The position numbers and the translations under genes are program-made. Positions 2,808 to 15,673 of a stretch of DNA of 40,695 nucleotides are shown here, in pieces. Below the pieces are notes generated by a model. It was not told where the DNA came from. It saw nothing but the letters and a program-made list of their open reading frames with translations, and searched no databases. Positions within the stretch are counted from its first letter, which is position 1, and each line of letters starts with the position of its first letter. Origin of the DNA: a virus; the IMG/VR virus record IMGVR_UViG_3300041404_000202, positions 1 to 40,695 of that record. One strand, written 5' to 3'.

Positions 2808-3604
2808 TTCGGCACCTCCGGCGCGGCGGCGAGCATGGCTGCCCATTCAGCATCCGCGGAGCAATTGGCCTCCATCCAGCTTTCCCGCATCTCGACCGTA
2901 GTTTCGACCGGCACGAGCTTCCAACCCTCCGGCACCCCCACTCGCGGTGCGCTAGGCGAGGCGAGTGACTGCGCATCTTCGAACGCGGCGCGCGCATCCG
3001 TCAGGTGTGATCCGAGGCTGAAAATTTCGTGCCGCTCGCACCACTCGCGCACCTGCTCATCCGTCACCTCATCCCCAGCCGTGGCGACAGCCTGATCGGC
3101 GGTGGAGGTTCGCGGTTCATGCGAAATTTCGAAATTTCGAAATTTCTCGGCACCTGTGGCGGCCTTCGGCTGGGCCGCATCGATTGCTTCGCCAATGCCC
3201 GCGTAGCCCTTCTCCTTCGCTGCATCATTCCAGCGGTCGAAGAACCCCTTCTTCCAGTCGTCGCCCGTGTGGGTGGAAATGGCGTACTCCCTGATCGCGT
3301 CGGGCAGGGAGAGCGAAAGGGCCGCGTGCCACGCCTTCCTCTGCAGGTGGCAGTCGCGGCTTCCAACCGGGTTCCGTTTGAGGTCGAATGCGTTGTCCAC
3401 GTACCACTGTTCGAACGTCGTCGCGTCCCTGATCGGCTGCTCGGCAGGCTGGGAGACTGGCGCCGTCCGGGAGATCCACACGCGATCGCCCATGCAGAAG
3501 CCCATGTCCGCCTCGATCTCCAGGTGGAAGCCCGAGCGGCTGTTCGACAGCGTGTTGACGATGGTTCCTTCGACGGCCTGGTTCTTGCTGGATTCGTCGT
3601 TCAC
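2804..3604 (-). CDS. Hypothetical phage early protein with a repeated GAAATTTC palindrome inside
   Basis: 266-residue protein. The C-terminal part (EGWKLVPVETTVEMRESW then EWAAMLAAAPEV) matches a tail seen at the end of many phage early proteins of unknown function (GWKLVPVEPT...MLAAAP). The N-terminal third reads like a small beta domain (GTIVNTLSNSRSGFHLEIEA). A central segment encoded by three tandem GAAATTTC palindromes (3123-3146) gives KFRNFEIS and probably lies in a linker. Its TGA overlaps the next start. Probably a modular accessory protein; no activity can be assigned. Confidence 0.65.
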   Translation of the reverse strand: MNDESSKNQAVEGTIVNTLSNSRSGFHLEIEADMGFCMGDRVWISRTAPVSQPAEQPIRDATTFEQWYVDNAFDLKRNPVGSRDCHLQRKAWHAALSLSLPDAIREYAISTHTGDDWKKGFFDRWNDAAKEKGYAGIGEAIDAAQPKAATGAEKFRNFEISHEPRTSTADQAVATAGDEVTDEQVREWCERHEIFSLGSHLTDARAAFEDAQSLASPSAPRVGVPEGWKLVPVETTVEMRESWMEANCSADAEWAAMLAAAPEVPK

Positions 3605-13544: not shown

Positions 13545-14339
13545 ATGGCAACGGAACACTGGTTTCGCTGGCATCACGGCACATTCAACGATCCGAAGCT
13601 TCGGACGGTCGCGTCACGTGCAAGCGCTCGCCTGTCACGTAATGTCACGGTTGGTCACGTTGTGGCTGTGTGGGCCGCGATGATGGAGAACGCGTCACAG
13701 GCATCGCCGCGCGGTGAACTGTCGAACTGGTCGAATGAAGACGTTGGCATCGCCCTGGATATCCCCGAGGAGGAGGTCGAGGCCATCTTCAACTCGATGC
13801 AAGGGAAGACCCTGGACGCGGAAGAGCTCATGGCCTGGAAACGTAGGCAGCCCAAGGCCGAGGACACCACGGCGGCTGACCGGAAGCGGGCTCAACGCGA
13901 GCGTGATCGCCTCGCTGATGTCACGGCAATGACCATCGAGTCACGCAATGTCACGGTAGGTCACGACAGAGGAGAGGAGAGGAGAGAAGAAGAGAAAGAG
14001 CAGAGCACGCCAACTTCGTCGGCGGCTGCTCCACTCGCTCTCGCCTCGGCCGAAGCCCCAGGCACCCCGAAGCCGGCGAAGCGGAACGGCACCCGCCTGC
14101 CGGATGACTGGCGCCCCACGCCGGAACTGATTGCCGCTGCCCGCACGGAGCGGCCGGACATCGACCTGCGGCTGGAGACGGCGAAGTTCCGCGACCACTG
14201 GCACGCCAAGACGGGCCGTGATGCGACGAAGCTCGATTGGGACGCCACCTACCGCAACTGGATTCGCAACGCCCGCAGCCCGAACGGCTTCGGCCAGCGC
14301 AACGAGCCCGTGCGCCACCGCGAGGAACTGCGCCGATGA
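13545..14339 (+). CDS. Phage replication initiator (O-like) containing the iterons
   Basis: 264-residue protein. Residues 3-120 form the winged-helix start common to phage initiators (HWFRWHHGTFNDPKLRTVAS, LSNWSNEDVGIALDIPEEEV). A basic linker (AADRKRAQRERDRLADVTAM) and a C-terminal domain typical of O/DnaT-like proteins follow (LPDDWRPTPELIAAARTERP, FRDHWHAKTGRDATKLDW). It should bind the phage origin and load helicase. ATGA overlap with the DnaB gene. The peptide RNVTVGH occurs twice because repeated GTCACG origin-like elements are embedded in the coding sequence. Confidence 0.8.
   Translation: MATEHWFRWHHGTFNDPKLRTVASRASARLSRNVTVGHVVAVWAAMMENASQASPRGELSNWSNEDVGIALDIPEEEVEAIFNSMQGKTLDAEELMAWKRRQPKAEDTTAADRKRAQRERDRLADVTAMTIESRNVTVGHDRGEERREEEKEQSTPTSSAAAPLALASAEAPGTPKPAKRNGTRLPDDWRPTPELIAAARTERPDIDLRLETAKFRDHWHAKTGRDATKLDWDATYRNWIRNARSPNGFGQRNEPVRHREELRR
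13574..14008. other. Candidate phage origin: 10-bp-phased GTCACG iterons and purine tract in the initiator gene
   Basis: GTCACG starts at 13613, 13634, 13644 and 13654, and again at 13920, 13940, 13950 and 13960; single-base variants lie near 13573 (ATCACG) and 13694 (GTCACA). The strict 10-base phase puts copies on one helix face. A purine-rich tract of AGAGGAGAGG type (13967-14008) follows. In lambda, ori lies within O. The repeats also keep RNVTVGH in protein, so some constraint is coding; the even spacing at DNA level argues for iterons. Confidence 0.65.
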
Positions 14340-15673
14340 ACCCGCGCGACTCCATGCGGCTCGGCCTGCGCGTGCCGCCGCACTCCAACGAAGCCGAGCA
14401 GAGCGTCCTGGGCGGCCTGATGCTCCGTCCCGACGGTATCGACGTCGTGTCGTCACACCTTGACGCTGACGACTTCTACCGCGGCGACCACCGCCTGATC
14501 TTCCGCGCCATGGTCGCCTTGTCCGCCCGCGGCACGCCGTGTGACGCGATCACCCTGGGCGAGTGGTTTGCGAAGAACGACTTCGACCAGGTGCCCCCGG
14601 CCTACCTGATGCAGCTGGCCAACGACACGCCCAGCGCGGCGAACATCGTGGCCTACGCGCGGATTGTCCGCGAGAAGTCCATTCGCCGCCGCGTCATCGC
14701 GGTCGCGTCCGACCTCGTCGAGAACGCCTTCGGCGTGGAGCAGGAGGCGATGGATCTCGTCGACGGCGTGATCGGCCAGCTGATGGGCATGCAGCACATC
14801 GAGCAGAACACCGAGTACACGCTTCGTCAGGCCTTGACGATTGCCTACGAGGCGGCCACGGCGGCGAAGGAGCGCGGCGGCAAGATACCCGGCATCCCCA
14901 CGGGCCTGACGGAGCTCGACGACGTCCTCGGCGGCTTGCACAAGTCCGACCTGATCATCGTTGGCGCCCGTCCGGCCATGGGCAAGACGGCGCTGCTGCT
15001 GAACATGGCACTCGGCCACGATGGCGCCGCTGGCTTGATCTCGACGGAGCAGCCGGTCGTGCAGATCGGTTCACGCATCCTGGCGATCGAGGGCGGGATC
15101 AACGCGTCGCGCCTGCGCAATGGCTCGCACGACGAGGACGACCTCGGCCGCATGGCGAACGCCGTGGGCAACCTCATGGACCGCGAACTAATGATCTGCG
15201 ACCAGGCCGGGGTCACGATCGGCGAGGTCCAGCGCGTCGCTCGTCGGTGGAAGCAGAAGCATGGCATCCAGCGCCTCCTGGTGGACTACGTCCAGCGCAT
15301 CAAGGGCAACGACCCGCGCGCCTCGCGCATCGATCAGGTGGGTGACGTCGCCATCGGCCTGAAGGACATCGCCCGCGAGTTGGACATCCCGGTCGTTGCG
15401 CTGGCGCAGGTCAACCGCGAGGTCGAGAAGCGGGCCGACAAGCGGCCCAACATCGGCGACCTGGCGAACTCCAGCGAGATCGAGAAGGAGGCCGACCAGG
15501 TCCTGATGCTCTACCGGGACGAGGTCTACAACAAGCAGTCGCCCGACAAGGGCATCGCCGAGATCAGCGTGGAGAAGAACCGCCACGGCCCGACCGGCTT
15601 CGTCCGCGCCGTCTGGCAGGCCGAGACCATGCGCTTCCGCGACATGTCGCACCACGGGGCCTATGACTACTGA
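14336..15673 (+). CDS. dnaB: Replicative DNA helicase, DnaB family
   Basis: 445-residue DnaB-type helicase. N-terminal domain: PPHSNEAEQSVLGGLM and DFYRGDHRLIFRAM. RecA-like motor: Walker A GARPAMGKT with Lys 217, Walker B LLVDYVQ with Asp 317, then DIPVVALAQVNREVEKR and RPNIGDLANSSEIEKEADQV. It unwinds the phage fork after loading by the O-like protein. ATG 14336 is the coupled start. Full length for the family. Confidence 0.95.
   Translation: MNPRDSMRLGLRVPPHSNEAEQSVLGGLMLRPDGIDVVSSHLDADDFYRGDHRLIFRAMVALSARGTPCDAITLGEWFAKNDFDQVPPAYLMQLANDTPSAANIVAYARIVREKSIRRRVIAVASDLVENAFGVEQEAMDLVDGVIGQLMGMQHIEQNTEYTLRQALTIAYEAATAAKERGGKIPGIPTGLTELDDVLGGLHKSDLIIVGARPAMGKTALLLNMALGHDGAAGLISTEQPVVQIGSRILAIEGGINASRLRNGSHDEDDLGRMANAVGNLMDRELMICDQAGVTIGEVQRVARRWKQKHGIQRLLVDYVQRIKGNDPRASRIDQVGDVAIGLKDIARELDIPVVALAQVNREVEKRADKRPNIGDLANSSEIEKEADQVLMLYRDEVYNKQSPDKGIAEISVEKNRHGPTGFVRAVWQAETMRFRDMSHHGAYDY

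Follow-up and report, generated by a model that had tools for sequence, protein, structure and literature searches.

Two helically phased iteron arrays within a phage replication initiator gene: a probable intragenic origin of lambda-like principle and new layout

The replication initiator gene of the virus represented by IMG/VR record IMGVR_UViG_3300041404_000202 contains two clusters of the hexamer GTCACG with copies at 10-bp steps, which raises the question whether this gene also harbors the origin at which its product acts. The window, i.e., the whole stretch of DNA analysed, comprises 40,695 bases. Judged by the gene order CI-like repressor, CII-like activator, initiator, and DnaB helicase, the phage is temperate.

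The initiator gene (13545..14339; all features given here are on the plus strand) encodes 264 amino acids and belongs to PHROG 1408/3729, annotated as "replication initiation protein", and 3992, "primosomal protein". Its product is an O-like phage initiator, for which domain matches and an AlphaFold (AF2) model indicate an N-terminal DNA-binding-like domain, a disordered linker and a C-terminal domain with weak likeness to DnaT. The model has a mean pLDDT of 73, mostly > 88 in the N-domain, with predicted helices at residues 17-30, 36-52, 64-71, and 108-134 and a disordered stretch at 134-175. In case of the C-terminal domain, the DnaT profile (Pfam PF17948) scored below the cut-off (14.8 vs. 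25 bits; E 0.023 when taken alone), and the matches of the relatives' C-terminal domains are weak as well (best E 0.0024; E <= 0.1 in 5 of 22). Profiles of Pfam and NCBIfam gave no name to the N-domain, and a search of solved structures by sequence yielded no match to the initiator. The presumed DNA-binding role of the N-domain rests on the family annotation and the predicted fold, with no similar solved structure. A winged-helix or MarR-like fold was set aside, since all matches of the fold search were weak (E > 0.7). The end of the initiator gene is overlapped by the start of a gene encoding a DnaB-like replicative helicase (14336..15673; Pfam DnaB_C, E 3.8e-77, and DnaB N, E 8.6e-30; PHROG 19). 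In L009-L013, L015, L029, and L046, all of the window clade, N-domain, linker, and iterons are kept and the C-terminal domain is swapped for unrelated ones.

Cluster 1 (13634..13659) and cluster 2 (13940..13965) each consist of three GTCACG at 10-bp steps. Single outlying copies are situated 21 bp before the first triplet (13613..13618), kept in L002-L004, L006, L007, and L009 and absent in more distant relatives, and 20 bp before the second (13920..13925), where several relatives keep a copy. The eight start positions listed in the original prediction (13613, 13634, 13644, 13654, 13920, 13940, 13950, and 13960) are exact, and so is the separation of about 306 bases, the two 26-bp blocks being 306 bp apart and 92% identical, spacers included. 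The two clusters had been thought to flank most of the code of the N-terminal domain; instead, cluster 1 is located inside this domain (residues 31-38), in the loop between predicted helices 17-30 and 36-52. Cluster 2 is situated in the linker code at residues ~132-141, where helix 108-134 ends and the predicted disordered stretch begins. The window shows no enrichment of GTCACG as such (44 seen vs. 38.3 expected), and the argument therefore lies in the spacing and not in the frequency of the hexamer. GTCACG-N4-GTCACG has 4 matches in the window vs. 0.04 expected, all four in the clusters of the initiator gene, and triples of 6-mers at 10/11-bp spacing are restricted to these two clusters in the whole 40.7-kb window. 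Apart from the initiator gene, a perfect tandem repeat of CGAAATTT (3.1 copies) is present at 3122-3146 of this genome, which has 64% GC.

Both clusters had further been described as ending in a purine tract, which is correct for cluster 2 only. Adjacent to it, a purine-rich tract of low stability composed of AGAGG repeats (13966..14010; TRF 13968-14005) is proposed as DNA unwinding element. Its purine fraction of 0.89 ranks at the 99.97th percentile for the window, and in the region from 12.8 to 16.5 kb no 45-bp stretch is less stable than the one starting at 13956. Cluster 1 is followed by ordinary coding sequence without an adjoining unstable tract. For 67 initiators with a chain of iterons in the linker, the 45 bp after the chain were surveyed: their stability is below the gene average in 66 and they are more purine-rich in 63, and in 57 of the 67 the least stable 45-bp window of the gene starts right after the chain. 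Repeats of AGAGG, AGATAC, AGATAA, or AGAGAC make up the tract and are translated into GEERR, DTDTDT, DKDKDK, and ETETET peptides. This purine- or AT-rich tract next to the linker cluster probably represents the unwinding element.

Relatives of the initiator were gathered with peptide patterns that exclude the iteron peptides and were complemented by those of a first scan, resulting in a non-redundant set of 74 initiators (<85% identity). Synonymous-codon shuffles, in which both the protein and the codon usage of every gene are preserved, served as null model. Identical 6-mers at lag 10 occur 179 times in the N-domain code (13.4+-6.7 in shuffles) and 596 times in the linker code (27.6+-9.7), and no excess was observed for the rest of the gene (15 vs. 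10.4). Successive copies are spaced by 10 bp (218 times), 11 bp (27 times), or 12 bp (9 times). The cores are GTCACG, (C)GAACGC, or GTAACGC. The GTCACG core comprises 6 bp, is not palindromic, and has flanks with little information. The leading G of GTCACG, though not selected for, is invariant at 236 of 236 sites. The linker of L113 contains the longest array seen, with seven GTCACG at 10-bp steps and one 12 bp on, followed by further sequence in place of the usual purine tract.

Both clusters are present in 47 of the 74 initiators (32 of class TCACG, 14 of GAACG, and one of TAACG), a clear linker cluster alone in 20, a clear N-domain cluster with a degenerate linker cluster in two (L015 and L083), and neither in five. 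The motif class of both clusters agrees in 47 of 47 cases, which represent few independent events, since the class follows clades and changed only 3 times among the two-cluster phages; an independent-pairs test of co-switching comprises 2 pairs only and has no power. All support is comparative, and related sequences are not independent of each other.

These observations very probably reflect an intragenic origin made up of the linker cluster and the adjoining tract, to which the same iterons, placed in the code for the DNA-binding domain, add an auxiliary array. We infer the following course of initiation. The initiator would bind GTCACG, three copies at 10-bp steps offering their sites on one face of the helix. 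Next to the linker array, the tract would be the likely site of melting, and the neighboring DnaB helicase would be loaded there, as established for lambda (PMC7466680). The N-domain array, located ~300 bp upstream, would be bound by the same initiator and most likely be auxiliary, contributing to nucleation, enhancement, or copy control of the initiation complex. In this respect the clusters look unequal, with linker cluster and tract as putative origin core, because many relatives lack the N-domain cluster and hardly any the linker cluster. The original prediction of a phage origin inside the initiator gene, similar to lambda ori and with short unfamiliar iterons, fits everything tested in these sequence comparisons.

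Alternatively, only the linker cluster may be the origin and cluster 1 an operator or roadblock by which the initiator represses its own gene or limits RNA polymerase. We consider this the less likely reading but a serious alternative to an enhancer role, and several properties of cluster 1 would suit such a function: no unstable tract adjoins it, about 20 of the 74 initiators lack it while keeping the linker cluster, and it occurs early in the gene, at a distance from the linker cluster that varies without helical phase (Rayleigh p 0.85 at 10.5 bp for 47 pairs). However, cluster 1 shares its iterons with the linker array, and a cluster that moves between loops and can lie as far as 180 bp past the start codon would be unusual for an operator. 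In the window clade, cluster 1 is carried by a six-residue insertion (LSRNVT) missing from other members, and in the relatives of Escherichia, Pseudomonas, and Aeromonas as well as in the GAACG class it is located in the next loop, between predicted helices 36-52 and 64-71. Cluster 1 is expanded in L049 (1511-2302), where a longer loop insertion in the N-domain adds a fourth GTCACG at 10 bp, and it is replaced in L050 (2414-2510), near its usual position, by two copies of the inverted hexamer CGTGAC 10 bp apart. A rigid DNA loop between the clusters finds no support in the 47 pairs, as these show no helical phase.

The genes of regulators adjacent to the initiator gene could also point to CI, CII, or another phage regulator, or else to a host protein, as the factor that binds the arrays in place of the initiator. 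This is improbable, as in the window arrays are found in the initiator gene only, phages with very different hosts (Xanthomonadaceae, Escherichia, Pseudomonas, and Aeromonas) repeatedly show these motif classes in their initiator genes, and the initiator family itself has undergone switches of class. Viral contigs were also scanned for GTCACG triplets with 10-bp steps irrespective of gene family, and the outcome argues in the same direction: the scan returned at least 119 stretches, and among the matches listed, 84 of 107 clusters (80 loci) lie in ORFs matching the initiator domain. The ORFs with such triplets in L225, L230, L259, L263, L281, and L291 do not match this domain; their Arg/Glu-rich, linker-like contexts are similar, which suggests that the iteron may be common to other phage initiator families. 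The two-cluster segment of Escherichia phage Evi (L025:1989-2440) is covered to at least 80% in 1,798 of 5,426 complete E. coli genomes; the E. coli copies, roughly 2,160 in number, are annotated as hypothetical protein or phage replisome organizer.

That the origin is a plain single-array origin in the linker, with the N-domain copy as a neutral duplicate or relic of recombination, could be suspected from the near identity of the two 26-bp blocks, which extends to their spacers. We regard this as implausible: N-domain copies are kept in 49 of the 74 initiators, their hexamer codons are invariant across 15 genes while the flanks drift, and copies decay where the linker motif has changed. GAACG arrays occur in both N-domain and linker of L072, L076, and L078. 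In L089, L090, and L095, which are 75-84% identical to L078 outside the iterons, the linker arrays are GTCAC and the N-domain GAACG copies are decayed, as expected for selected sites. L090 and L095 still retain the peptide SNATERG, in case of L095 written as TCA AAT GCG ACA GAG CGC vs. TCG AAC GCA ACC GAA CGC. After a change of the linker class, the N-domain copies cease to be maintained at the DNA level, even in genes whose peptide stays. In a tree built without the cluster-bearing columns, which comprises only 78 columns and has many open forks, the window clade (12 rows, 98/88) is placed apart from the Escherichia/Pseudomonas-type clade (21 rows, 97/90), and thus the two-cluster GTCACG layout arose at least twice.

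Both 26-bp blocks encode SRNVTVGH, and a joint constraint on protein and DNA had been proposed. The shared RNVTVGH was found as described, but the constraint is mainly on the DNA. Since 10 is not a multiple of three, a 10-bp phase leads to reading of the hexamer in all three frames (TCA-CGN as SR, GTC-ACG as VT, GGT-CAC-G as GH), so the shared peptide is a read-out of the DNA repeat and no independent constraint, and the wobble positions that should be fixed can be predicted. Codons were compared for pairs with the same residue in 15 genes of the window clade, 40-80% identical to the window protein. Those of the hexamer in cluster 1 (S31 TCA, V34 GTC, T35 ACG, G37 GGT, and H38 CAC) are the same in 484 of 484 pairs, vs. 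52% for the adjacent R32, N33, V36, and V39 and 54% elsewhere in the domain. The codons of S133 (TCA), V136 (GTC), G139 (GGT), and H140 (CAC) in the linker cluster do not vary either; a single deviation was seen at T137. Relatives that keep the peptide and lose GTCACG, which would have spoken against the original prediction, do not occur in the window clade, as its hexamer codons are identical. Furthermore, GTCACG triples at 10 bp give TGA in all three antisense frames and are for this reason codable only in the present orientation. The notion that RNVTVGH is a functional protein motif used twice, with the DNA repeat as a by-product, accounts for the peptide shared by both clusters, but it is practically untenable and was rejected due to a repeat period that is no codon multiple, invariant wobble positions in the hexamer next to free ones, peptides of other clades (NATERGRTQ, VTQCNA) with matching DNA repeats in both places, and the predicted disorder of the linker.

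It is tempting to speculate further that these phages share a widespread class of origin that is bipartite within one gene, with the linker array, the tract, and an obligatory identical array in loops of the DNA-binding domain, and in which both arrays switch iteron class in step with the binding specificity, so that the site would have repeatedly reshaped the domain that recognizes it. We hold this extension to be tentative, to be taken seriously without being favored. In any case, the arrays are a sequence mark by which origins can be located in many temperate phages, a large group in which most initiators carry the annotation "hypothetical" or "replisome organizer" and to which prophages of a third of the complete E. 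coli genomes belong. Odd recurring peptides of phage replication proteins (SRNVTxGH, TQCNAP, NATERG, DTDTDT, and GEERR) are explained as read-outs of origin DNA. With three motif classes, each with matching arrays, these phages lend themselves to studying how initiator and site change specificity jointly when the same bases encode both, and the role of the second array is open to clean testing, because both arrays can be recoded without a change of the protein.

Among known systems, lambdoid origins (lambda, Stx phages, and P22, with O or 18) are similar in that iterons and an AT-rich tract occur in the linker code in the middle of the initiator gene, next to a helicase or helicase-loader gene; P22 also pairs its initiator with a DnaB-like helicase. 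In lambda and Stx phages, four to six 19-bp iterons and an AT-rich region are located in the middle of O, the lambda iterons being imperfect inverted repeats (PMC7466680) that are annotated 20-24 bp apart in one cluster. Linker iterons and an adjoining unstable tract are lambda-type features of the window gene. As in iteron origins of any kind, several direct repeats in helical phase are maintained by selection at the DNA level. Inverted-repeat iterons of ~19 bp were not found among the window iterons; here, 6-bp cores at 10 bp form two clusters, one of them in the code of the DNA-binding domain. Repeat lags are 20-24 in lambda O, 14-24 in P22 18, and 15 in TP901-1 rep, with none at 10, and the iteron repeats of lambda and P22 are restricted to the linker. 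The N-domain profile gave no match to lambda O and an insignificant one to P22 gp18 (E 0.33).

Rep (ORF13) of the Lactococcus phage TP901-1 resembles the window gene by direct repeats inside the initiator gene, with six or more shared bases at lag 15; it differs by this 15-bp period, and neither an N-domain cluster nor a significant domain match was seen. Short iterons in two separate cis regions for one initiator are likewise known from ori and crr of satellite phage P4, but these sites are kilobases apart and lie outside or at the end of the initiator gene. A published description of the present arrays was not found in a search of mainly open-access literature. In SPP1, gene 38 houses direct repeats together with a DUE (oriL), and another site of similar organization is located far away (PMC6316719). 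Its oriL and oriR share with the window gene two sites for the same protein, G38P, as well as repeats with an AT-rich DUE in the initiator gene, but they are ~13 kb apart and each has its AT-rich element, compared to ~300 bp, one gene, and one tract here. In PICIs, two iteron sets flank an AT-rich region, an organization reported for "no other known bacterial replicon" (PMC6092414). The rep-ori of SaPI and EcCI is similar in that two iteron sets constitute one origin bound by the initiator of the element (PMC6092414); its AT-rich region is situated between the sets, 3' of rep, whereas in the window both sets are in the coding region and the tract is located downstream of cluster 2 and not between the clusters. 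The present layout thus shares its principle with the origins of lambda, SPP1, and PICIs and equals none of them: the principle is lambda-like, the layout is new.
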